A program made the position numbers and the translations under genes. The notes below the pieces were generated by a model, which saw only the letters and a list, made by a program, of their open reading frames with translations, was not told where the DNA came from and searched no databases. From positions 1 to 40,720 of the IMG/VR virus record IMGVR_UViG_3300046002_004017: a stretch of 40,720 bases of DNA, one strand, 5' to 3'. Of this stretch, positions 2,344 to 40,720 are shown piece after piece (within the stretch, counting starts at the first letter, position 1; the number at the start of each line of letters is the position of its first letter). Source of the DNA: a virus.

Positions 2344-4029
2344 TTATTTTGTACTTTCATGTGTCTGTATAGCTTTCTTAGATTTAGCATCTTGAATAGC
2401 TTGTTGTTGTAGACGTTGTTTCTCTTTAGGAGTTAATGAAGGTAACGGGGTATTATTCTTAACTGCTTCAGTATAGGATTGAACGTTTAGTTTCTCTTTA
2501 GCTCCTTCAAGACCTTTACTGCTAATACCAGCATCTTTCATACGTTGTAAACCTAACTCAGTTGCTTTACTTGTAGCCTCTTTAACACTTACCCCACTCG
2601 CTACAGACTCTTCAATATAATCCCGCATTACTGAGATGACAGCTTCCGCATTATCTTTAGCTTGTTTGTTTGGCGTATCAAAACTACCGAAGCTATAACC
2701 TGAGTTAACATATATCTGCTTAGTAAAGTCTTTATAATAAGGATTAGAGGTGATAGGTTTCTCAGTCTTATCAGCCCTAGATGCTGCTCTATTAGCTTCA
2801 GCATCTTTAGCGTTCATAAGTTTCTCAAAGCCTGACTGAGAGATATCTCCTTGTTCTATAGCTCTAGCTATCTGAGCTGTGGTAGGATTACCTAAGCGTA
2901 ACTTATTGTAATTCTGAGCTTGATATAGAGTTTCTTCTTTCTTATCTATACCAGTTGAAGCTGTCATCAATAACTTAATAGTAGAATCTGAGATAGGTAA
3001 GCCTGACTCTGTGAGACTCTTAGTATTCATTACGAGTTCTCTAAGTTTATCTGCACGTACTGTAGGGTCTGCAAAGGTGTTAATATCTATCATCTGAAAT
3101 AAAATACCACGTTCAGATACATCAGCAGCGTTCTTAAGTTCTTTCTCAATGGCTATCTCTTTATCTTTGAAAGCCTTGTTACTTTCTACAGTTACCTTAT
3201 AAGCCAAAGCATCTAACTTATCTTTCCACTTAGGTATCTCATAGAGACCCGGAGTACCATCTAAGTGAGGATTCTTAAAGATATTTAATAGTTCAGTATC
3301 TTTAGTTTCTTCTACAGTATTCGCTACAGCCTCATAAGCTAATTCATCTAGTTGACTATTAGTTTTACCGGGGAACTGAGCTTTAAGATTAGCTCTACGT
3401 GCTTCATAATGCGTAGCTGTATAATCCATACCAGCCCCTTGCACATCGTTAATGTCATGTGAAAACATACGCATTAACTCAGTGTTATTCTTGGTATCTT
3501 GTAGTTTTGTAGCAAACTCACCTTGAGATGCCCGTATCTTTTCCATAGATTTACTAGCGAGTGTAGTAAACTTACTTGTGTAGGTATCAGTCTTATCTTG
3601 GAACGGGTGGGCTTCCCATTGAGTTTTCAGGAAGTCCTCTACATTACCATTCTCTTTATCAAAGTTAAGGTCATACTCTTGGATTACTTTCTGATTCCAG
3701 TCAGTCCAGTCATTAACAGCTTTAACACTGTCATAACCATACTGTTCCATTTCACCTTCAGCAATACCACCAGTTTGAGCCTTACCTTTACCCTTAAGAA
3801 TCTCTGCTGAATACTCTTCAGTTTTCTTATCAATAGCATAATTCATTAGTTCAGGTTTAACTGCACTGAGGGCTTGTGCTAACTGATTGATACTTGAAGA
3901 CTCTACAGCTACAGGAATGTTAAGAGGGTCTGAGTGAACCCTGAGTCGTCTAGCGTCACCTGTTTGATATTTGCTAGTGTCCTCAATGGTATTGATGACT
4001 TGGCGTTGTCCATTCTGAAAGGTAGCCAT
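2344..4029 (-). CDS. Internal virion protein C (T7 gp15-like)
   Basis: This 561-aa protein sits between a gp14-like and a gp16-like gene, exactly where T7 gene 15 lies. It is hydrophilic, rich in Lys, Glu, Ala and Gln, and predicted by eye to be mostly helical, with no signal peptide or obvious membrane span. T7 gp15 (about 747 aa) forms part of the internal core and the periplasmic part of the ejection tube; this homologue would be shorter. The gene starts 2 bp after the stop of the gp14-like gene and ends 3 bp before gp16-like starts, so the ejection proteins form a tight operon. The assignment is by synteny and general character rather than by a diagnostic motif. Confidence 0.75.
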   Translation of the reverse strand: MATFQNGQRQVINTIEDTSKYQTGDARRLRVHSDPLNIPVAVESSSINQLAQALSAVKPELMNYAIDKKTEEYSAEILKGKGKAQTGGIAEGEMEQYGYDSVKAVNDWTDWNQKVIQEYDLNFDKENGNVEDFLKTQWEAHPFQDKTDTYTSKFTTLASKSMEKIRASQGEFATKLQDTKNNTELMRMFSHDINDVQGAGMDYTATHYEARRANLKAQFPGKTNSQLDELAYEAVANTVEETKDTELLNIFKNPHLDGTPGLYEIPKWKDKLDALAYKVTVESNKAFKDKEIAIEKELKNAADVSERGILFQMIDINTFADPTVRADKLRELVMNTKSLTESGLPISDSTIKLLMTASTGIDKKEETLYQAQNYNKLRLGNPTTAQIARAIEQGDISQSGFEKLMNAKDAEANRAASRADKTEKPITSNPYYKDFTKQIYVNSGYSFGSFDTPNKQAKDNAEAVISVMRDYIEESVASGVSVKEATSKATELGLQRMKDAGISSKGLEGAKEKLNVQSYTEAVKNNTPLPSLTPKEKQRLQQQAIQDAKSKKAIQTHESTK

Positions 4030-4031
4030 TA

Positions 4032-4532
4032 TTAACCTGCTTTCGCTTTAGCTGTTGCTTTAGCTTTCTGAGTACCTGTATAAATATCAGAACCAATCTG
4101 TAAGCCTGTACCTAAGAGTGTAGGAGCTTTACTATAAGCATTAGCACTAGTAGCATTAGCTTGTCCTTCAGCTTGCTTACCTTCCCACCCAGTCTGTTTA
4201 ATAGCATTCTGTCTATTCTTCTCTAGGGATGCCATATCAGTACCTTCCTGCATATAGGAGTCACCTAAGAGTCTATCTGAAGAGATACCTAAAGCACCTG
4301 ACTCACCAGCAATGGTAGCCATTTTAGCTCTCTCTAAGAGACCCTGCTTGTTTCTCTCAGATTGGTCTAGTGCTGACTGGTCGTTAATCTGTCCTTGTTT
4401 CTCATTGATTTGAGCATACTGAATCTGAGCTTGATTATTAGCTGAAGTAGCAGCGTTCTTAGCTTGTTGTTGTCCACCTAAATAAGTAGCACCAGCAGAG
4501 ACTACTGCAATAGCTGTCATTGGGTCACACAT
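4032..4532 (-). CDS. Internal virion protein B (T7 gp14-like)
   Basis: This 166-aa protein begins MCDPMTAIAVVSAGATYLGG, the short hydrophobic N-terminal segment typical of gp14-like core proteins, followed by an Ala/Gln/Asn-rich helical stretch. In T7, gp14 is the ejection protein that forms the outer-membrane part of the DNA channel. The ATG at 4532 overlaps the last base of the upstream gene, consistent with coupled translation in the order gp13-, gp14-, gp15- and gp16-like. The N-terminal pattern and position make this one of the safer virion assignments. Confidence 0.85.
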   Translation of the reverse strand: MCDPMTAIAVVSAGATYLGGQQQAKNAATSANNQAQIQYAQINEKQGQINDQSALDQSERNKQGLLERAKMATIAGESGALGISSDRLLGDSYMQEGTDMASLEKNRQNAIKQTGWEGKQAEGQANATSANAYSKAPTLLGTGLQIGSDIYTGTQKAKATAKAKAG

Positions 4533-4996
4533 TATAATTTCCTTACATAAGTAAAAGGATGGAAGACCACCCCGTTAAGTGTTCGGGTGTGTGCCTTATG
4601 AATACTGAAGCCCATCCATGTTAACCATCTATGGGCTTTACTATTGGTAACTGATACATAGTTGTAAGAAAACCTAAAGTTATCTGTGAGTTCCTTAACG
4701 TAACCCTTACAGTGCCTTATAAATTTTCTACAACTTTTATCAAAGAGTAAATCACTTGTTAATAACCAAGGGATTCCATCCTTGTTGTAATCACGAATAC
4801 CAAAGATAGCGATACAGCCTATGTCATCTTCCATCACTGTATAAGCTTTACAAGATACATCAGCACTTGCTAAGAGAGAATCCACTAGACTCCTGTGAGG
4901 ACTAACAGCTAAGATTTCCTTAATGTCTTCCTCACGTAATCTAGTGGCTAACGCTATACAATCTTCCTCTGTGATACCTACTTTTACATAAGCCAT
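4532..4996 (-). CDS. Internal virion protein A / acetyltransferase-fold protein (T7 gp13-like)
   Basis: This 154-aa protein resembles T7 gp13 in length, place and pattern. A central stretch ends in WLLTSDLLF, followed by a basic CRKFIRHCKGYV helix, then YNYVSVTNSKAHRWLTWMGF, the GNAT-like motif in which a residue pair is followed by a 'bad neighbour' helix and GF. Proteins of this family have an acetyltransferase fold but in T7 act in virion assembly and are present in low copy; enzymatic activity is not established. The gene is fused tightly to its neighbours: its start overlaps the tail tubular B stop at 4996 and its stop overlaps the gp14-like start. Confidence 0.7.
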   Translation of the reverse strand: MAYVKVGITEEDCIALATRLREEDIKEILAVSPHRSLVDSLLASADVSCKAYTVMEDDIGCIAIFGIRDYNKDGIPWLLTSDLLFDKSCRKFIRHCKGYVKELTDNFRFSYNYVSVTNSKAHRWLTWMGFSIHKAHTRTLNGVVFHPFTYVRKL

Positions 4997-7032
4997 TAGA
5001 GATGTTTAGAAGGAGCTGTTAATACACCTTCCCACTCAGCAGCTTGTATCGTGTTAGGTAACACTGAGTCATTGATAATTGTTACTGTTGATTTCATACT
5101 ATCCCCCATGACTGGAAACCTAAACTTACCTGTACCCAAAGGGGTATCTCCAATGTAATTCACTGAGTCTCCTAATGTTTTTCCTGAGTAAACATACGAA
5201 TATGTATCTCTACCTGCTGCACTTACCTCAGCTCTAAAGTAACCTGTGGTGTCATAGAGAATCTCAAAGTTCTTAATCTTTACTTTGTAGTGAGTCACAG
5301 CTATCTTTTGTTCATCCTTAAAGATTACTGGAGAGAATGTATAACGTAATGTATAAGGTCTACCTACATAACAACTACCCGTAGAGTAATCACCTGTAAC
5401 TCTTAGCGTTGTCGTAGAGGGAGCTGAAGGTGTCTTAACGACTGCCATAGCTCCTGTGAAGGAATCCCCTAAGACTACTCTGAAAGAGTCATCTACGAGA
5501 TAAGGTGTAGTGAATGTAGTCCAATCGTTACTTGAGTCATACACTCCCGTTAAGGTTACCTTTTGGTCTAACAAGATACGCACACCTAAGCTACCATCAG
5601 TTACATCTTGTAAATCTAAAGATTCTAAGTAAGTACCATCACTACGTTTAATTACTAGGTGCATAGTGGTGTTGATAAACTCAGCATCTAATATCACAGC
5701 ATCACTATCAAATGTGAACTTACTCCAAGAGGACTGTACCTTTTCATCAGGTGAACTCCAGTAATACCGATACACATATAAAGCATTACGTTCATCTTTA
5801 GAGAGTGCTACTACGATATTGTCTAGGTTACTTGAAGCTAACTTAAAGAGATTCTTAGGAACATACTTAGGTGCATGAGCTGTTAAGTCTGAAGCATCAT
5901 TAGTGTATGTTAAGGGTTGTACTAGGTACTCTTTGATACCTGAGAAATTACCTTTAGTGACCCCAAAGAATATACTAGTACCTGAACTTGTAGGTTTAGC
6001 AGCACCTTCAATGTTGAACTCTGTAGTCACATTGATTACTGCTGTCTTAGGTGTGAGGGTATCTTTAGCTGTTAATTGAAACTGTGCTTGGTCTGCAAAT
6101 AACATCAAAGAGGTATTAAAGGCTAAGGCGTGTCTAAGTACAGCTACCTTATTGTGACTCACTGAGATGTCTACAGGGTCAGTATCGACTAACACTGTGA
6201 CTGTCTCAGGGAAGAAATTAAAGAAAGCCCCTGCTCTACTAAAGATTACATTTTCATCCGCAATGAATCCTAAACGATTCCTATGGAAGAATACATCTGC
6301 TATCTGCTTACCTACAAATGAAGGGAAAGAAGCTGACGTATCATCACCTACTAATCTATCTATCCATGCTGTAGTAGAGAATGTAAAGCTACCTCCACCA
6401 TTGTTTACTAACCTGAAAGGCATTGTAGAAGCTTTAAGTCTATTCAGTAGACCGGGCTTTTGTGTCTCTCTCCATGTGCCTGAACCATCCCACACTACAT
6501 AGTAACTATCAAAACTATTCGTACCTGTACCTACGATTTGCCAAACATCATTTAATACATTGCCTGTCGTTGGTAGGTCTACGAATTGTTGATAACCCCC
6601 TTTGTATGTGCCAATGCCCGTAGAGGTATCTTTAAGCACCGTGACAGTCTTATTAACGATAAAGGTATAGTCAGCTACAGTAACACAAGCAAAGCTCCCT
6701 AGAGGGTCTGTAGCGTTAAGATAAGCCTTACCATCAGGGAAACTTACAGTTTGCTCTACACCAGCTAAGTTATAAACCTTTAAGTCACCATTAGTAATAA
6801 TAACTTTATATTGTTCATTATCAGACCTGTTAATGGTATGTATAAAACTATCAGTATTCGTAGCGGTACTTATCTTAGCTACGTGTGAGGTAGGAGGTCT
6901 CTTAGATAATCCAAAGACAACTGAAGATAATCCATTGATTTGCTCAGAGGCTTGGGAAGGTAATCTAAGAGATGGAGGTTGTTGTGATACCCCATTGTAT
7001 ACGTTAGGTATCGAACGATTTACTAGTGCCAT
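4996..7032 (-). CDS. Tail tubular protein B (T7 gp12-like nozzle)
   Basis: This 678-aa protein starts MALVNRSIPNVYNGVSQQPP, the characteristic gp12 N-terminus of T7-like phages (NG(V/I)SQQP). It forms the hexameric nozzle of the short tail below the gp11-like ring. The body is beta-rich with many Thr, Val and Tyr residues, as expected for the beta-propeller/OB architecture of T7 gp12 (794 aa); this version is shorter. It ends against the gp13-like gene with a one-base overlap. The 72-aa gene at 7035-7253 separates it from tail tubular A. Confidence 0.93.
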   Translation of the reverse strand: MALVNRSIPNVYNGVSQQPPSLRLPSQASEQINGLSSVVFGLSKRPPTSHVAKISTATNTDSFIHTINRSDNEQYKVIITNGDLKVYNLAGVEQTVSFPDGKAYLNATDPLGSFACVTVADYTFIVNKTVTVLKDTSTGIGTYKGGYQQFVDLPTTGNVLNDVWQIVGTGTNSFDSYYVVWDGSGTWRETQKPGLLNRLKASTMPFRLVNNGGGSFTFSTTAWIDRLVGDDTSASFPSFVGKQIADVFFHRNRLGFIADENVIFSRAGAFFNFFPETVTVLVDTDPVDISVSHNKVAVLRHALAFNTSLMLFADQAQFQLTAKDTLTPKTAVINVTTEFNIEGAAKPTSSGTSIFFGVTKGNFSGIKEYLVQPLTYTNDASDLTAHAPKYVPKNLFKLASSNLDNIVVALSKDERNALYVYRYYWSSPDEKVQSSWSKFTFDSDAVILDAEFINTTMHLVIKRSDGTYLESLDLQDVTDGSLGVRILLDQKVTLTGVYDSSNDWTTFTTPYLVDDSFRVVLGDSFTGAMAVVKTPSAPSTTTLRVTGDYSTGSCYVGRPYTLRYTFSPVIFKDEQKIAVTHYKVKIKNFEILYDTTGYFRAEVSAAGRDTYSYVYSGKTLGDSVNYIGDTPLGTGKFRFPVMGDSMKSTVTIINDSVLPNTIQAAEWEGVLTAPSKHL

Positions 7033-14384: not shown

Positions 14385-14423
14385 ACCCCTATAACCGTCA
14401 CCGAAAACGGTAACCCATTGATT
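14385..14423 (-). promoter_or_regulatory. Phage RNA polymerase promoter, late (structural) genes
   Basis: Minus strand AATCAATGGGTTACCG, TTTTCGGTGACGG, TTATAGGGG. The last part resembles the T7 promoter end (TATAGGG), placing the likely first G at 14389. It aligns over about 36 bases with copies at 33.5 and 28.6 kb. It precedes the portal-scaffold-capsid block and would be read by the phage's own polymerase. Confidence 0.85.
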
Positions 14424-25955: not shown

Positions 25956-25992
25956 ATTGCTATAACTGTCAGTGAGAACTATAAGTCATTGT
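25956..25992 (-). promoter_or_regulatory. Degenerate phage RNA polymerase promoter before DNA-metabolism genes
   Basis: Minus strand ACAATGACTTATAG, TTCTCACTGACAG, TTATAGCAAT aligns with the other three copies but differs at several positions, including GCAA instead of GGGG at the start. Likely first base at 25960. It would drive the SSB-to-exonuclease genes, probably more weakly than the 14.4 and 33.5 kb copies. Confidence 0.7.
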
Positions 25993-26035
25993 TTTATATC
26001 TTTAAGATTACATTTAGTTTCCTTTAAGATACCTT

Positions 26036-28489
26036 CTAAGCAAAAAAATATTCGCTATCCAATACTACGTTTATATCCAAGTCACCATAAGGTGGTAGCT
26101 CAGGTAACTCTTTAACTAACTCACCTGCCCCTGAGTCCACGAGTTGACTTATGATTTCATCTCTGAATTTAGCTAGGACATCTTCAGAATACTGAATCAC
26201 AAAGGCTTCTCTAAGTGTCTGCGCTAATACACCTGTGTCACACGCATGGACACCATAGCTATCGTGAATCATTGAGTAACTATTGATACCAGCAGATTTA
26301 CACATAGAGATAGTACGCATCATGTGAGCAGCATCACAGCTATGTACGAAGTTAGGTGAGATACCAGCAGATTGCTTTCGGGGGTTTATATCAGTACCTT
26401 GTCGGTTAAACTGTATGCGTACTTTCCTCCCTCCTGAAAAGATATTAACTTCTTCAGCTAACTGTGTGGTATAGAACTGTCTCACGGGTAATCCTGTAGG
26501 TGTATGCCATACCACAGGTAGCCCATTACTTGAGACAACCTTAGCGACATCCTGTAACCACTTCATAGCAGCTTCGGCAGCGACTACAACTTGGCTGATA
26601 GCTCTCAAGTTTTTATCTGCTAGGTAGTAAGCTGTTCTTGAGATGTCTACAGTTTTATCTCTAAACTTAATACTTCCTTCTTCTAACATAGTGTCTAGTT
26701 CCTGTACTAGCTGGTCTCTCATACCGAAAGCTGTTACTGAGTAAGGTCTAGTCATTGTGTTTCTCTTAGTCAACTTACGACCAATCGGTTTGTTTACCCA
26801 GTGGTCTCCCTCACGATATAGAGCAGTCTTCCAATTGATTGCCTCTAGGACACCTGCATCAGCATCAATATCTAACATACCTTGGACAACATTAGCGACT
26901 TCTTGATAGATGTCTGAAGGTTTCTTTGAGGGTACTAAATTGGTAGCTTTACCCCCTATGCTGTCTCTTAGCATTGCTGAGAAGTTCTGTAGTCCATTGC
27001 AAGAACCATCAAGAGCTATGGCAATATGTGATACATAGTCAGACCCTTGCATTGTGTAACCTAACCATTCAAAACAAGCAGCTAGGAATAAGAATGGTTT
27101 ATCTGCTAATAACCAAAAACGATTACCTTCAGTAGGTCTTAGTGCTGAATCTAATATAGCATCTGTATTCTCTTCAGCCCATTCAATACGTTTATCAAAG
27201 TCTACTTTGTCATAGCCGAAACAGTTAGCTAAATGAATGGCTAACCATGCGACACCCTCAGTACCTAGCGGTTTACCTTCAGCAAACTGAATGAGTGCCT
27301 TACCTGAGTCATCAGATTGAGGGTTAACAAAGCCGGGTATCGCATAAGCCCTGCCTCTCCAGTCTAATACGTGAGGAAAGTAGATAGTATCTTCATTGAG
27401 AAACTTTTCAGCTACCCATAACTTTTGACTTAAGGCTATCACTTTAGCTTTAGCTTTAAAGTTTTCATTATAGGTACTAGCTGCTTTACCTTTCCATAAC
27501 TTAAGACTATCAGGGTTAGTGTCTATGTCGATAGGTTTATCTGGCATAGCCTTACCTTCTTTAAAAGGTAACTTAGCAATTCCACCACCTGTAGTTTCCC
27601 ATAGTTCTTTCATGACTGAGTACACAGCCTTGTTAATCTGCCAAGGAGTATCTTGTAGTGCATTAAGTGACTCATAAACGATAGGCATATCTACGTGTTC
27701 TAACTCTTGTAGGTAAGCCTTGTTGCGAGTCTTCATGATACTTAGAGGTGTCTTAAGATACCCACCATCAGTAGGTGTTGACCAAGGAGTAGGCTTAGAG
27801 ACCATCGGGAGATACAAAGGGGATAACAAAGAGCAGGTCTGATTCTGTAGAGCTAACCATACCTGTAGAGAATCTGTAGGTTCAATGTAGTACACAGCCT
27901 TATTCTTAGCTTCATTATGTAATGTTTTCTTAATTAGATTTAAACTCTCTACCATATCTAAAAGTTTAAAACCTAGCTGTAATCTTAAGTCAGTCTCTAA
28001 GACTATCTTATCAACATTACCTAACTTAACTTGAGCACCTTGTATAACCTTACGTTTATGCTGGTCATTAGCAGCAGTCCCCTTAAGGTTGTCTAGAATC
28101 TTACGCATAAGCCTAGGCTGTTCTTTATTAAACTCTCTGTAGTTGAGTTCATCTTCTAACAGTGTAGCGATAGCGATAGCCATTGAAGCTAACTTTTCTC
28201 TACTAGAGATACCATTGATAACTCTCTTCAGGGTTAAGTAAGCTACTTCTTTATGTCCTACTAACTCAAAGTATTGAGCAGTCCTAAAGAATCTCCTAGC
28301 ATAACCACTTTTAGTATCAGCACTAAATTTATCTAGGAGTTCAATCATAGGTGCTAAAGAGTTCTCAATGAGTACAGCACCTACACGGTTATTATCTTGT
28401 CCTTGTTTATCTAAACTTTTGAAGTAAGCTGCTACGCCAAGACTCCCCATCTCTGTCTCTAATTCTATTTGCTTATCTAGGTTACTCAT
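26036..28489 (-). CDS. Single-subunit DNA-dependent RNA polymerase (T7 gp1-like)
   Basis: This 817-aa enzyme has all expected signatures: DWRGR at 376-380, motif A DGSCNGLQNFSAMLRD with catalytic D494, motif B RKLTKRNTMTRPYSV (catalytic K near 572-575 and Y583), and motif C MIHDSYG with H742 and D743. It ends SEYFFA, the aromatic-Ala tail needed at the active site in T7 (FAFA). It transcribes all middle and late genes from the motif described at 14.4, 26.0, 28.6 and 33.5 kb. Length is slightly below T7 (883 aa). It has its own phage promoter upstream. Confidence 0.97.
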   Translation of the reverse strand: MSNLDKQIELETEMGSLGVAAYFKSLDKQGQDNNRVGAVLIENSLAPMIELLDKFSADTKSGYARRFFRTAQYFELVGHKEVAYLTLKRVINGISSREKLASMAIAIATLLEDELNYREFNKEQPRLMRKILDNLKGTAANDQHKRKVIQGAQVKLGNVDKIVLETDLRLQLGFKLLDMVESLNLIKKTLHNEAKNKAVYYIEPTDSLQVWLALQNQTCSLLSPLYLPMVSKPTPWSTPTDGGYLKTPLSIMKTRNKAYLQELEHVDMPIVYESLNALQDTPWQINKAVYSVMKELWETTGGGIAKLPFKEGKAMPDKPIDIDTNPDSLKLWKGKAASTYNENFKAKAKVIALSQKLWVAEKFLNEDTIYFPHVLDWRGRAYAIPGFVNPQSDDSGKALIQFAEGKPLGTEGVAWLAIHLANCFGYDKVDFDKRIEWAEENTDAILDSALRPTEGNRFWLLADKPFLFLAACFEWLGYTMQGSDYVSHIAIALDGSCNGLQNFSAMLRDSIGGKATNLVPSKKPSDIYQEVANVVQGMLDIDADAGVLEAINWKTALYREGDHWVNKPIGRKLTKRNTMTRPYSVTAFGMRDQLVQELDTMLEEGSIKFRDKTVDISRTAYYLADKNLRAISQVVVAAEAAMKWLQDVAKVVSSNGLPVVWHTPTGLPVRQFYTTQLAEEVNIFSGGRKVRIQFNRQGTDINPRKQSAGISPNFVHSCDAAHMMRTISMCKSAGINSYSMIHDSYGVHACDTGVLAQTLREAFVIQYSEDVLAKFRDEIISQLVDSGAGELVKELPELPPYGDLDINVVLDSEYFFA

Positions 28490-28587
28490 AGTTTTCTCCT
28501 AAGGGATAGTTGTGATTAGATTACTATCTATGTAATAGAAATCCATAAGACTACTCATTAAGTAATCTTATGGTTTACTACTAGTAT

Positions 28588-28626: not shown

Positions 28627-28666
28627 ACCGCTATAACCGTCACTGAAAACTGTAAGTCATTGATTC
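28627..28666 (-). promoter_or_regulatory. Phage RNA polymerase promoter upstream of its own polymerase gene
   Basis: Minus strand AATCAATGACTTACAG, TTTTCAGTGACGG, TTATAGCGG, nearly identical to the 33.5 kb copy apart from two changes. Likely first base at 28631. It lies about 140 bases before the polymerase ATG and would give positive autoregulation. Confidence 0.85.
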
Positions 28667-28754
28667 TTACTACTAAGTGATTGTTTCTTAAGAGAAACTT
28701 TCCGTATTCATTAAGACAAACTACGGTCAAACTATACTCTAACTCATTGATTAA

Positions 28755-28810
28755 CCGGGTGATAAACGAGATTTTAAGTCTCTTGTGTCTACCAATTTCA
28801 CCACCCGGGC
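28755..28810 (-). other. Candidate attP: 5' half of a tRNA-Leu(UAA) gene
   Basis: On the minus strand GCCCGGGTGGTGAAATTGG, then TAGACACAAGAGA, CTTAAAA, TCTC reproduces the acceptor 5' strand, D-arm and anticodon arm of proteobacterial tRNA-Leu(UAA); the anticodon TAA lies within CTTAAAA. After the anticodon stem the match ends: no variable arm, T-arm or CCA follows. It lies 28 bp downstream of the integrase stop, the usual attP place. Known relatives with tRNA-Leu-derived attP beside int include the T7-like cyanophage P-SSP7. The last seven bases, CACCCGG, are complementary to CCGGGTG at the tRNA 5' end. Confidence 0.75.
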
Positions 28811-28838
28811 TTGGGATAAGTCCTTGAATTTAAAGACT

Positions 28839-29909
28839 TCAGTGATTAGCTACTAAGGGTAGTTTGACTACAGTTTGACTAGAATAAGACAAACTATGGG
28901 CAAACTCTTGGTGTCCTTTAGAGCCTGTATTTATTACTTTTACTACATCTTGCAGGTGTACTTCAGATAACTGAGCATACTTTAAAGTGGTGCTATAACT
29001 CTTATGCCCTAACCATGCTTGTACTCTTTTTAAGTCAACTCCTTGAGCTACTAAACGACTAGCACAAGTATGTCTTAAGCTGTGAATAACAAAAGTAGAG
29101 TCACTTTGATACCCTAAGTGTTTCCTAAAGTGTAACCAATAGGATTCTACCATGTCTATTGTGTAAGGGAATGGCACAGGAAGACCCCTACGAAGCTCTA
29201 GGACACGTTTCATTGTATCGGTAAGGGGTTTGTGTAGGGTCTCTCCTGATTTCGTGTCTGTGAACCTTACAGCACTACTTTTGAAGTCTACATCAAACCA
29301 AGTTAACTTTAATACTTCACTTAATCTATTACCACTACTTAATAAAAATTCAAATAATCCTGCTTGTTCTTCAGTGTAAGAATTATTGAAGAAGCGCATC
29401 ATACTGAGTTCTTCATCATCAGTCAATACTCTATGTCTACTAGGTGGTTCTTTTAAAGCTTTAATCTTAGGAGCATAACTTAACTTGCCCCATTCAATAC
29501 ATAAATTAAGTAGTGTCCTGAGAGTAGCTAACTTACGGTTAATCGTAGCAGGTGAGTTATTGATACCCCTAAGTTTAATCGTTATGTCTCTTATGGTTTC
29601 ACTAGTAACACTTGAGACATCTTTAGTTATATCTAAGTGTTCACTTAATAATACCCAGTTCTGACTTACTTTATACTCACTCTTGTTGCCTTTCCAGTGT
29701 GACTTCACGGCTAACTTAAAGGCTTCATCAAGGGTAAATACTTTAGATTTCTTAAGTATTCCCCAAGATTCTTTTAACATCTCAGCCTCAATCAAAGCGT
29801 GTAACTTGAGAGCTAAAGTTTTATCTTTAGTCTTTGTAGATTTTCTATGTCTTATTCCATTGATAGTTAAATCAATTTGCCATATTCCATACTCATTTCT
29901 TTCTAACAT
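28839..29909 (-). CDS. int: Tyrosine-family integrase
   Basis: This 356-aa phage integrase has an N-terminal arm-binding-like region, a core-binding SAM-like domain (about 60-150), and a catalytic domain with the full set R195 (GNRLSEVLKL), K220, H276-x-x-R279 (HSLRHTCASRL), H302 (WLGHKS) and nucleophile Y311 (TTLKYAQL). It would catalyse integration and, with a directionality factor, excision. No excisionase is obvious, though several small early proteins could serve. It lies 9 bases after the MarR-like gene and is followed by the tRNA-derived attP candidate. Integrase is absent from T7 itself but known in some marine T7-like phages. Confidence 0.95.
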   Translation of the reverse strand: MLERNEYGIWQIDLTINGIRHRKSTKTKDKTLALKLHALIEAEMLKESWGILKKSKVFTLDEAFKLAVKSHWKGNKSEYKVSQNWVLLSEHLDITKDVSSVTSETIRDITIKLRGINNSPATINRKLATLRTLLNLCIEWGKLSYAPKIKALKEPPSRHRVLTDDEELSMMRFFNNSYTEEQAGLFEFLLSSGNRLSEVLKLTWFDVDFKSSAVRFTDTKSGETLHKPLTDTMKRVLELRRGLPVPFPYTIDMVESYWLHFRKHLGYQSDSTFVIHSLRHTCASRLVAQGVDLKRVQAWLGHKSYSTTLKYAQLSEVHLQDVVKVINTGSKGHQEFAHSLSYSSQTVVKLPLVANH

Positions 29910-29918
29910 AATAACCTC

Positions 29919-30329
29919 CTAAGTAGTGGTTAATACTTTCGTTATTCTATTACCAATAAAAGAAATTAACTCACGGCAAACTTCAGCACCTTTTGGGGTT
30001 AACGTGAGTAACATTCTGCGTCTATCATTATAATCAACCAATGATTTAATAAGGTTTAAACCATCAGTCCCATTACGCCCATCAGCTAATCTATAATAAT
30101 TCCTAGAGCTTCCAGCTTTAGATAATCCTAACGCTGCCCCTACATTGCTAATATCCACAGGCTCTTCTTGACTGGCTATATAGAGTAAATACTTCACAGT
30201 TTGCGCCTCTACAGTTTCATGGAGATGTTTCTGTAAGAGACTCTCAAAGTCCATTAAGATACCTGCGATTCGTCTATCTTTTACAACTAATAATGATTCT
30301 GAGTTTATAGCATTCAATTTCGTATTCAT
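29919..30329 (-). CDS. MarR-family winged-helix regulator, candidate lysogeny repressor/switch
   Basis: This 136-aa protein has an N-terminal helical dimerisation part and a winged helix: DISNVGAALGLSKAGSSR as helix-turn-helix, then DYNDRRRMLLTLTPKGAEVC, the MarR wing signature (D-x-R-R ... L-T-x-x-G). It binds DNA as a dimer by family analogy. The ATG at 30329 has AAGGAG seven bases upstream. The order promoter with dyad, small gene, regulator, integrase suggests it controls its own operon or the early lytic promoter. Most temperate phages use cI-type repressors, so a MarR-type switch would be unusual. Confidence 0.82.
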   Translation of the reverse strand: MNTKLNAINSESLLVVKDRRIAGILMDFESLLQKHLHETVEAQTVKYLLYIASQEEPVDISNVGAALGLSKAGSSRNYYRLADGRNGTDGLNLIKSLVDYNDRRRMLLTLTPKGAEVCRELISFIGNRITKVLTTT

Positions 30330-30438
30330 GGGGGCTCTCCTTATAAAACTTAGGCAACCAAGTGATTACCTCATGTGCTCTTTTAGTTTCTACTAGAATT
30401 TCTATGCAATTAAAACAACTAAAATAAGTTATAAACAT
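30274..30438 (-). CDS. Small Cys-containing protein (54 aa) overlapping the regulator gene
   Basis: The ATG at 30438 is preceded by GAAGGAAAG at a suitable distance and is the first start after a strong sigma70-type promoter. The product MFITYFSCFNCIEILVETKR plus IECYKLRIIISCKR has a C-x-x-C and overlaps the regulator start by 56 bases in another frame. It may be a leader whose translation couples to the regulator, or a small protein in its own right. Confidence 0.45.
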   Translation of the reverse strand: MFITYFSCFNCIEILVETKRAHEVITWLPKFYKESPHEYEIECYKLRIIISCKR

Positions 30439-30481
30439 ATCTTTCCTTCTTTTTATATCTTTAGTTTCCTAAAGAATTTTG

Positions 30482-30511
30482 ATTATATGATGATTGATTG
30501 ATTAAGGTCAA
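30482..30511 (-). promoter_or_regulatory. Host sigma70-type promoter before the MarR-integrase operon
   Basis: Minus strand TTGACC (30506-30511) and TATAAT (30482-30487) with an 18-base spacer, a near-consensus pair with a perfect -10. It faces the regulator and integrase genes. Confidence 0.8.
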
Positions 30512-30514
30512 TCC

Positions 30515-30539
30515 CTCAGTAGACTATCACTCTACTGAG
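30515..30539. promoter_or_regulatory. 25-bp perfect dyad abutting the -35 box, candidate operator
   Basis: CTCAGTAGA and TCTACTGAG flank a 7-base centre, a 9-bp perfect inverted repeat three bases upstream of the -35. There is no T-run after it on either strand, so it is not a terminator. A dimeric winged-helix regulator such as the MarR-type protein encoded next door is the natural candidate ligand. Confidence 0.6.
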
Positions 30540-30570
30540 AAGTAACCCTAAAAGATACCATTAAGACGTT

Positions 30571-30714
30571 CTAAAGTTTCCCTTGATAGAGTCTAGTAGA
30601 TGCCTTACGGTTAACTGGCTGCTTAGTTATAAGATAAACTATAAAATCCCCCAGGGCAAATATAATTAAGAATGAAAACATAAATATGAATAATAAGATG
30701 TAGTTTTCAATCAT
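30571..30714 (-). CDS. Small membrane protein (47 aa), early region
   Basis: The ATG at 30714 lies one base after the stop of the upstream early gene. Residues 4-30 (NYILLFIFMFSFLIIFALGD) are a clear membrane span, followed by a basic cytoplasmic tail (KQPVNRKASTRLYQGKL). A superinfection-exclusion or host-takeover peptide is possible; no family recognised. Confidence 0.6.
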   Translation of the reverse strand: MIENYILLFIFMFSFLIIFALGDFIVYLITKQPVNRKASTRLYQGKL

Positions 30715-31346: not shown

Positions 31347-31433
31347 AATGATTCCTTTAAGTTAATTTTAATGAGATTAAACAATCCCCTAATAGTTACC
31401 AAGTAATTAAACGGATAACTATTAAGTGAGTGT

Positions 31434-31700
31434 TTAAAATATATTACCTCTAGTAACTAAAGGGCTTTCTATATGGGCATTACGTACCATCAATTCAAAC
31501 TTAGCCTTAGCTTGCTCTAAAGTTTTAAACATACCATTAGAGCAGAATGGACATTTAGTTGTCTCATAGACAGCATAAGATAATCCATTGGCATAAGGTT
31601 TAATCAACCTGATAAGGTTTACCACTGAACCATCAGTAAAGTTTGCATATTCCATTAGAGGACTATTAAAGACACGTTTTGGGAGTATTGGATAACTCAT
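31434..31700 (-). CDS. Early hypothetical protein with CPFC motif (88 aa)
   Basis: Contains a single C-x-x-C (TKCPFCSNGMF) followed by a helix LEQAKAKFELMV, like half of a zinc ribbon that could dimerise around a metal. It is located five bases after the stop of the 59-aa early gene. No named family. Confidence 0.6.
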   Translation of the reverse strand: MSYPILPKRVFNSPLMEYANFTDGSVVNLIRLIKPYANGLSYAVYETTKCPFCSNGMFKTLEQAKAKFELMVRNAHIESPLVTRGNIF

Positions 31701-32776: not shown

Positions 32777-32785
32777 GATGTATAC

Positions 32786-32832
32786 ATAAGTAAAACTTAT
32801 TGATAACTGAAGATTCCATAAGTTTTACTTAT
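32786..32832. repeat. Nested 15-bp inverted repeats
   Basis: ATAAGTAAAACTTAT (32786-32800) and its exact reverse complement (32818-32832) flank a 17-base centre. Each arm is itself a dyad (ATAAGT, AAA, ACTTAT). This fourfold arrangement is typical of paired operator half-sites or a recombination/replication element. Confidence 0.85.
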
Positions 32833-32919
32833 ATAAAAAAAATAGTGAAATAAGCAATTAAATATATTAAGAGTATACCGACCTGTATACACCTTAAGAA
32901 TCTCTGCTTATTTCACTAT
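32833..32919 (-). terminator. Large-hairpin intrinsic terminator between late and early regions
   Basis: Minus strand ATAGTGAAATAAGCA (32905-32919) pairs perfectly over 15 bp with TGCTTATTTCACTAT (32842-32856) and is followed by T8. Inside the 48-base apical region GTATAC, six bases, GTATAC forms a second stem. It would stop transcription running out of the terminase gene before it reaches the early promoter. Confidence 0.8.
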
Positions 32920-33209
32920 GTTTGCTACTGATTACCCTGCCGATTACCCTTGTATTATCCCCAGTTTACCCTTAAGACATTCCATATCTCTTTACTTCCT
33001 ATATATATCAATCACTTACGTGTTACCTTGCCTTAATCCTGCCGTAGATGTGCATGATTTGTATATAGGGGCAGCTCGTTGAGTATATTCTCGCGACAAT
33101 CTATAGATACCTCCCGATAACCTAAAGAGTATCGCGAGTACCCCAGCGGGGGGAAACCCTACGCTACACGCTAGAGTAACCTACTCATATTTTTTCTACT
33201 AAATTATTC

Positions 33210-33494: not shown

Positions 33495-33534
33495 ACCCCT
33501 ATAACCGTCACCGAAAACTGTAAGTCATTGATTC
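33495..33534 (-). promoter_or_regulatory. Phage RNA polymerase promoter at the genome left end
   Basis: Minus strand AATCAATGACTTACAG, TTTTCGGTGACGG, TTATAGGGG; likely first base at 33499. It is the best match to the consensus of the four copies. In T7 such end-proximal promoters (phi OL) help replication initiation and DNA entry. Confidence 0.85.
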
Positions 33535-39010: not shown

Positions 39011-40720
39011 CTATTGGAATAATTCAATACCTAGATTACTTCTTACTATTTCATCATCTCTCTTATCAATGAAGTCTTGACGTGTCATACCTACCTCACC
39101 AAACAAAGCTTTAGACTTAGAATAAACTTTAGTACCAACCTTAGAGGCAATCGGAGTGATTCTCTTATAGTCATACAAGTCATACGCTTCAGCATACGGT
39201 CTAGGTTCACCTCTAGAGAACATCAATGAGTCATACTGCAAGGCTTTAACAGCAAAGGCTTTACGTTTGTTATACACCTTAGAAAGAATCTCATTACGTT
39301 TAGCATCTGTAGTATTAGGGTCTTGATAGTCACTAGACACAATAATTTCCTCTAGAGAATCTATAAGGTCTTTACCTTCAGAGTCTTTCAGTTGTCTTAC
39401 GAACTGCATATAGTTCCACTTCTCAGTACCATCAAGTTTAACCTTAGAATCCCCTGCACCTACAAACCTAGTGACACCCCCTAAGATTACATCGTTAGGT
39501 GTCTTAAGTTGTAACCGACGTAGTTCCTGCATAACAGGATGATTATTAGGTACTGTAGTTGGAGCTACACTTAAACCACCTAGTCCTCTTTGAACAGGAC
39601 TGATAGGTAATCCTAATAGGTCAGGTCTTGGAGGTAAACTGTTAGATAACCCTGGTATCTTAGCTTGGATTTCCTCTAAAGCATTGGAAGCCTCACGCAT
39701 ATACTTATCATTGTATTGCTGATTAAACCATTTAATAGTATTACCAGCAGGAAGTAAGTTACCCATACTACGTTGGACATAGTTACCCATAGTGTCATTC
39801 TTAATACCATCTAGTAACTGTGCCATACCACTTGACCATGACTTACTCATAGCATATTGAGAACCTACACCAATAGGAATACTCATGATGTCTAAAATAC
39901 CATCACCTAGTTCATCAGGGGTTAATTCTTCAGCATTAGCATCTATATAAGCCTGTACTGTTTCATGTACTGAAGCTGCTAACAGCAAGAAGGAGATAGG
40001 ATTACCATCTAGTCTACTTAAGTCAGTCATACTTCCGTCTTCTTGGTCAACTACAGACTGTTGTACAACACCTAACTGTGTTAAGTTACGAGATGCTGAG
40101 AAGTTATTTGTGATTTGACCCTTAAGATACCCTGTAGAAGCTAGTGTTAAACCTGCTGTTAACCACATAGAACCTGTAGCTATCTGAGCATAAGCCAAGT
40201 CAGCCCTAGCACCACCAGCTTCCATCTCTTTAAGCATATAAGATGAATGACCTGCTAAACCGGGTGTACGTCTAGCCATATACTTAACTAAATTCACAGG
40301 TGTCTTAATAAATGGTAAGACAATGTAAGTTTCCCTAAAGTGTCTTGCACCTTCTAGTAATAACTCCCCACCTTCACCAAAGTTTTCTGTAAAGGTTTGT
40401 CTAGCAGCATGGTCTTGAGATGCCATAGAGATACCATAGTAAGGGTCTCCTACTTTAGCCTTATTAACACCTTCTAACACTTCAGATACCTTAGCTAGAT
40501 ACTCAGGTGTACCCTTTGTTAACCCTGACTTAGTAGCTTCTCGCTGTGCTAAAGCAGATAACTCTCCTTTATAAAAGATAGCCTTGAAGAACTCGTCAGT
40601 TGCCATAAGAGACCTAGTACCACCGGGCATACTTCTTAAGCCTGTGCCAATGTAATCTAAGCCTGTGCCTATATGTTGCCATAGAGGACTATCACTATCT
40701 TTAATACCGAAGGCTGCCTC
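39011..40720 (-). CDS. Internal virion protein D (T7 gp16-like), C-terminal part
   Basis: This is the C-terminal part of the gene that begins at 2340. From the stop TAG at 39011 the frame is open through the window end, and after merging 40677-40718 with 2-43 it continues without a frame change. The Met at 40630 is internal (SPLWQHIGTG and DYIGTGLRSM precede it). The sequence is hydrophilic with several helices; ITNNFSASRNLTQLG and YMREASNALEEIQAKIPGLS are typical of large core proteins. The combined product of 1,334 aa is close to T7 gp16. Confidence 0.8.
   Translation of the reverse strand, partial: EAAFGIKDSDSPLWQHIGTGLDYIGTGLRSMPGGTRSLMATDEFFKAIFYKGELSALAQREATKSGLTKGTPEYLAKVSEVLEGVNKAKVGDPYYGISMASQDHAARQTFTENFGEGGELLLEGARHFRETYIVLPFIKTPVNLVKYMARRTPGLAGHSSYMLKEMEAGGARADLAYAQIATGSMWLTAGLTLASTGYLKGQITNNFSASRNLTQLGVVQQSVVDQEDGSMTDLSRLDGNPISFLLLAASVHETVQAYIDANAEELTPDELGDGILDIMSIPIGVGSQYAMSKSWSSGMAQLLDGIKNDTMGNYVQRSMGNLLPAGNTIKWFNQQYNDKYMREASNALEEIQAKIPGLSNSLPPRPDLLGLPISPVQRGLGGLSVAPTTVPNNHPVMQELRRLQLKTPNDVILGGVTRFVGAGDSKVKLDGTEKWNYMQFVRQLKDSEGKDLIDSLEEIIVSSDYQDPNTTDAKRNEILSKVYNKRKAFAVKALQYDSLMFSRGEPRPYAEAYDLYDYKRITPIASKVGTKVYSKSKALFGEVGMTRQDFIDKRDDEIVRSNLGIELFQ
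40677..40718. repeat. 42-bp copy of the window start (assembly overlap)
   Basis: Identical to 2-43; flanking bases differ on both sides (the last two bases differ). It lies inside a protein-coding gene, so it is an artefact of a circular assembly graph rather than the phage's terminal repeat. Confidence 0.9.

Follow-up and report, generated by a model that had tools for sequence, protein, structure and literature searches.

A conserved, covarying stem-loop joined to the promoter of a MarR-integrase operon in a T7-like freshwater phage

It is still an open question how temperate T7-like phages choose lysis or lysogeny. Control by a MarR-type regulator has been proposed by others, and to our knowledge no operator has been shown for these phages. 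A T7-like freshwater phage (IMGVR_UViG_3300046002_004017; the complete sequence of 40,720 nt was analysed and is called the window here) raises this question in a concrete form, since a palindrome lies beside the promoter of an operon for a MarR-type protein and an integrase. It may be asked whether this palindrome is the binding site of the regulator, as a preliminary description of the locus had it, or something else. The idea of a MarR-based lysogeny switch is already published, since it was proposed for LUZ100 and other temperate T7-like phages by authors who credit it to earlier work (PMC10134795; Boeckman 2022 and Zhao 2019 as cited therein for the module). Repression of the polymerase or of its promoter by MarR is put forward as a hypothesis in the same paper.

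On the minus strand of the window the genes follow each other in the order small open reading frame, MarR-like regulator, tyrosine integrase and single-subunit RNA polymerase, which confirms the arrangement that had been described, with a promoter leading into a small ORF, a regulator of MarR fold and an integrase. The small beta-rich protein (54 aa, 30274-30438) overlaps the start of the regulator (136 aa, 29919-30329), after which come the integrase (356 aa, 28839-29909; PF00589, E=4e-23; phrog_1, E=1e-46) and the polymerase (817 aa, 26036-28489; phrog_414, E=5e-236). The MarR-integrase-polymerase order is also present in the related phages L002, L010 and L011 and in the isolates inspected. 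The small reading frame had been presented as a gene for a Cys protein; it does precede the MarR gene, but its cysteines are not conserved and the label is not meaningful. Its AlphaFold2 model is all-beta and gave no significant match among PDB folds. A small ORF ahead of MarR recurs in temperate T7-like phages (L154, 2072-2239; L004, about 3200-3350), and counterparts in LUZ100, RHEph01 and HTVC019P, where it carries no annotation in the last, are probable from position and loose alignment only.

The regulator matches phrog_9665 (E=1.4e-17), which is a transcriptional regulator family, and its AlphaFold2 model (pLDDT 77.9) has the predicted winged helix with flanking helices that marks the MarR family. 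The best PDB matches of this model in Foldseek (MepR, ZitR, SlyA and MarR) all belong to that family, with a probability of 1.00 and modest E values (6e-4). A Pfam search of the regulator matched no family, and the NCBIfam profiles BilQ, MprA and MarR gave weak scores, far below their cut-offs. Counterparts found by tblastn, about 27-40% identical, occur in pelagiphages, cyanophage P-SSP7, Rhizobium phage RHEph01 and a Limnohabitans phage. The regulator has a single cysteine (residue 118); its lack of conservation speaks against a thiol switch common to the relatives.

The linkage of the regulator to an integrase also stands, and for integration by this kind of module there is direct sequence evidence, which comes from a relative and not from the window phage itself. 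In Methylotenera sp. 24-45-7, contig L144 contains a phage closely related to L010; from its integrase end the sequence passes through a 45-nt core and continues as a complete tRNA-Leu gene, beyond which different DNA follows. In the window, the attP core (28768-28812, minus strand) consists of the same 45 nt, identical to the 5' half of tRNA-Leu(UAA), so that, as for a lysogeny module, the phage has an attP that corresponds to a host tRNA gene and a relative is seen integrated. Since the near relative is integrated in a Methylotenera contig, Methylophilaceae are suggested as the host group, and a genus with an integrated relative can be named. On the host side of the L144 junction (2797-5824) lies a RepA-type plasmid replication gene, and the target tRNA may therefore be located beside or on a plasmid-like element. 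The attP of the window also bears a shortened tRNA-like sequence (28752-28810, minus strand), with a possible acceptor-like stem CCGGGTG ... CACCCGG and a weak Rfam tRNA match; the 3' stretch of attP is largely kept in relatives, though the match to the host tRNA is limited to the 45-nt core.

The palindrome itself, CTCAGTAGA-GTGATAG-TCTACTGAG (30515-30539, minus strand), had been described as a 25-bp perfect dyad just outside the -35. The arms are indeed perfect and end 3 bp from the -35, but a length of 25 bp is reached only when the 7-nt spacer is counted (9+7+9). No short-spacer inverted repeat in the window exceeds the dyad in length, though it is equalled; it occurs once even if three mismatches are allowed, and the early region named in the preliminary description holds no second copy. 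By itself the dyad is unremarkable, since 0.72 inverted repeats with arms of at least 9 and loops of up to 12 are expected and two are observed in 5.2 kb; its significance comes from conservation in relatives. In five further phages (L002, L010, L011, L028 and L015), a 55-bp block aligns with that of the window without gaps and occupies the same site, ahead of the small ORF; in the window it lies at 30496-30550 (minus strand; TAGGGTT, stem-loop, GGGATTGACCTTAATCAATC), and its general layout is TAGGGTT-N2-stem-GTGAYAG-stem-GGATTGACCTTAATCAATC. A covariance model of the block finds it once per phage examined. The 5' flank, the loop and the 3' flank are invariant except at one Y and at a small number of junction bases, whereas the stem is variable.

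The stem-loop that contains the dyad (30513-30541, minus strand) has 11 bp, nine perfect in the window plus two G-U, around the 7-nt loop GTGATAG. Among the six phages, six of the nine core pairs are altered on both sides with pairing kept, and 98.5% of the 66 stem cells are paired. The covariation score is 0.715 as compared to 0.355 in shuffles, none of 500 of which reached it, and slid controls gave at most 0.24; these values refer to only six independent sequences, two of which have a recent shared ancestor. On the early-transcript strand the non-Watson-Crick cells comprise 13 G-U, no A-C and one U-U out of 66, with 10 of the 13 G-U cells in the two outer pairs, one of them invariant, and just three in the core. 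The sense (early-gene) strand folds more stably than the antisense strand in all six phages, and RNAalifold recovers the same stem, closed by pairing of the invariant TAGGGTT (30544-30550) with GACCTTA (30503-30509), which is folded on the sense strand in all six; this closing pairing is invariant and hence beyond the reach of covariation, and would arise by chance with a probability of 1-7%. Because the arms are compensated while loop and flanks are fixed, the 25-bp dyad looks like a conserved RNA hairpin, of which the structure is computed and the function proposed, and it is not read as an operator because an operator would keep its arms.

Searches for the element elsewhere were carried out at several levels. 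With E values of up to 5 admitted, no Rfam covariance model matched 30496-30550, the covariance model of the block run across 187 Methylophilaceae genomes matched only the Methylotenera prophage, and a loose hairpin pattern had 119 matches in viral contigs, with a complementary stem and the right flanks only in the known relatives. L014 was rejected as a carrier of the block, its 3' flank occurring by chance inside a gene. A GNRA tetraloop with an R-Y closing pair was dropped as the pairing is broken in L028 and L015, and the dyad as a multi-copy phage promoter was dropped as it is single-copy and the phage promoter family has a different motif. Within the genome, only scattered 9-10-mers and no clear antisense partner of the arms were found. 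The block is preceded by a short gene for a putative membrane protein ending in RLYQGKL (30585-30713, minus strand), and similar ORFs precede it in L010, L011, L028, L015 and L144.

The sigma70-type promoter of the operon, TTGACC-18-TATAAT, is present at 30511-30482 (minus strand) and is as close to consensus as had been noted (11/12), and no other site in the window reaches 11/12; 0.475 such matches are expected from shuffles of the surrounding 5.5 kb, so that alone it is not beyond chance. In all six phages a -10-like hexamer (at least 4/6) lies 17-18 nt past an invariant TTGACC. The -35 is covered by a second, invariant perfect dyad, GATTGA-CCTTAA-TCAATC (30496-30513, minus strand). GATTGA-N6-TCAATC is unchanged in the six phages while the DNA downstream diverges, and GATTGACCTTAATCAATC is invariant in all of them as well. 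For MarR-family operators, such a size and such a position over the -35 are expected. Since this 18-bp dyad is operator-like in size and position, is invariant and covers the -35, and since the -10 is kept in every relative, we infer that it is a better candidate for the MarR operator than the 25-bp dyad.

We regard the locus as a lysogeny module of known kind that carries a new composite control element, an RNA stem-loop fused to a promoter/operator. With a probability of roughly 0.55, the region 30482-30550 would combine the operator dyad and the stem-loop in one element, placed where the early operon borders on the lysogeny operon, which comprises the small protein, MarR and integrase. At the DNA level, a MarR dimer most likely binds the 18-bp dyad holding the -35 and would thereby repress its own operon, and by analogy to the LUZ100 model it may act in addition as a repressor of the phage-polymerase promoter that precedes the RNA polymerase gene. 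At the RNA level, the 25-bp dyad would encode a stem-loop in early transcripts that presumably enter the block from genes further upstream. A GUGAYAG loop and flanks that are fixed, beside a freely covarying stem, suggest that this RNA is recognised or processed as a structure, by cleavage or protein binding, and the stem-loop would limit early read-through or separate it from expression of the lysogeny operon. Its most likely identity is that of a processing hairpin of RNase III type, like those that divide the T7 early mRNA, with an added recognition loop. Such processing would be the simplest role, since hairpins are also predicted in other early gaps and before the polymerase gene, as in T7, while the fixed loop and TAGGGTT suggest an additional reader of the RNA. 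Against the composite element it may be said that a symmetric operator with changing specificity would likewise give compensated arms, and that constancy of loop and flanks is not required of ordinary RNase III sites.

It is possible, though we hold it only tentatively, that the stem-loop is simply a T7-like RNase III site of the early mRNA, the flanks being promoter and operator and the loop having a minor role. The element is intergenic, has 18 bp with an internal loop, and is a long hairpin predicted in all six phages that an early transcript would probably cross. Other hairpins in early gaps of the window stand out too (31377-31437 and 32783-32923), and another long hairpin occurs in the leader of the RNA polymerase gene (28543-28573, minus strand), at the same place in L002, L008-L011 and L028, with a sequence that changes freely; this one is terminator-like in the scan and could instead be an attenuator. 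The same hairpin scan applied to T7 gives low z near 890, 1468, 3138, 5887 and 6448, positions which we take to be the T7 RNase III sites, and also at some other places. The T7 sites, between early genes and before the polymerase gene, resemble the hairpins of the window in stability and location, but the element discussed here differs from them in its promoter fusion and in its fixed loop and flanks: GUGAYAG and the 5' TAGGGTT are constant in 6/6 phages, which RNase III does not demand. The fixed 3' flank could be explained by promoter and operator. A more specific proposal, which we regard as rather speculative, is that in a freshwater clade of temperate T7-like phages the lysogeny promoter is physically joined to a cis-acting RNA of dedicated function, the loop of which is fixed as GUGAYAG while the stem changes fast; a phage or host RNA-binding protein would read the loop, and the RNA would gate early (lytic) read-through against the MarR-integrase operon.

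For the regulator, it seems unlikely that MarR is an early transcription factor of lytic growth instead of a lysogeny switch. Such a function would fit cyanophage P-SSP7, which like the pelagiphage HTVC019P group has the same gene order and a MarR about 30% identical, and the MarR of which is cited in one paper as diverting transcription from the host to the phage; moreover, MarR and polymerase are early genes in HTVC022P (PMC12753301). The constant linkage to integrase and the relative found integrated argue otherwise, and the lytic and lysogenic roles of MarR need not exclude each other. No 55-bp element was found in P-SSP7 or the HTVC019P group with the covariance model and an inverted-repeat scan. 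The pelagiphages L004, L148, L149 and L151-L153 have a different dyad just before MarR, about AAGTGTGGTTGTCTTCACTT, which is a candidate operator there.

The proposal made at first for the 25-bp dyad, a MarR dimer operator or activator site, taken here with arms that would have changed along with each regulator, as in immunity types, appears improbable to us. The position just upstream of the -35 would suit an activator, a change of specificity would agree with both arms changing symmetrically, and in the closest pair, L028 and L015, the arms diverge faster than the flanks (5/18 bases against 0/37 in the remainder of the block). The recognition helices of these two phages are near-identical, however, and whereas the arms differ between phages by 4-12 of 18 bases, freely but in a compensatory way, the recognition helix (SKAGSSRNYYRL and variants; pattern SKxxxSRNxYxL) and the wing (DxxDxRR, also given as DYxDRRR) show almost no variation among the six. 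An operator that co-evolves with its regulator is possible, yet its reader would hardly have changed. Furthermore, the spacer is fixed instead of the arms, the reverse of a usual operator, the mismatches are G-U and never A-C, and a single copy exists in the genome. A palindrome beside a regulator gene can thus be an RNA structure instead of the site of the regulator. An intrinsic terminator of the early operon, for which a stable hairpin closing an early gene group would be suitable, is very improbable, since the stem is followed by GGGAUUGACC / GGGATTGACC without a U-run and was not reported by a terminator scan.

The closest described system is LUZ100, which resembles the window phage in the order of small ORF, MarR, integrase and polymerase, with tRNA-Leu nearby, and in having a host promoter for MarR and integrase and a phage promoter before the polymerase gene, mapped as P3 and phi1, respectively (PMC10134795). 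P3 is located inside the small ORF, whereas the promoter of the window lies upstream of it and, unlike that of LUZ100, is combined with an invariant dyad and a stem-loop that covaries; a short-loop inverted-repeat scan upstream of MarR in LUZ100 gave no comparable dyad. The single-operator autoregulated repressors MarR, SlyA and MepR are similar in fold and in having a dyad over the -35, the operator of the window being a prediction. The locus offers one precise candidate operator and one strongly covarying RNA element that any model of the decision must explain.

Four near-identical 35-nt intergenic copies of AATCAATGACTTACAGTTTTCRGTGACGGTTATAG (14389-14423, 25960-25994, 28631-28665 and 33499-33533, minus strand) are probably promoters of the phage RNA polymerase. 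Two of them, the one ahead of the polymerase gene and the one at 33.5 kb, are accompanied by an additional repeat that lies upstream at a distance of about 21 bp. Between att and the phage promoter, TCAATSASTTA repeats are kept in relatives, and these have TCAAT in common with the candidate operator. Positions 1-40 of the window recur almost identically at 40676-40720, as an assembly overlap or as a repeat inside a structural gene.
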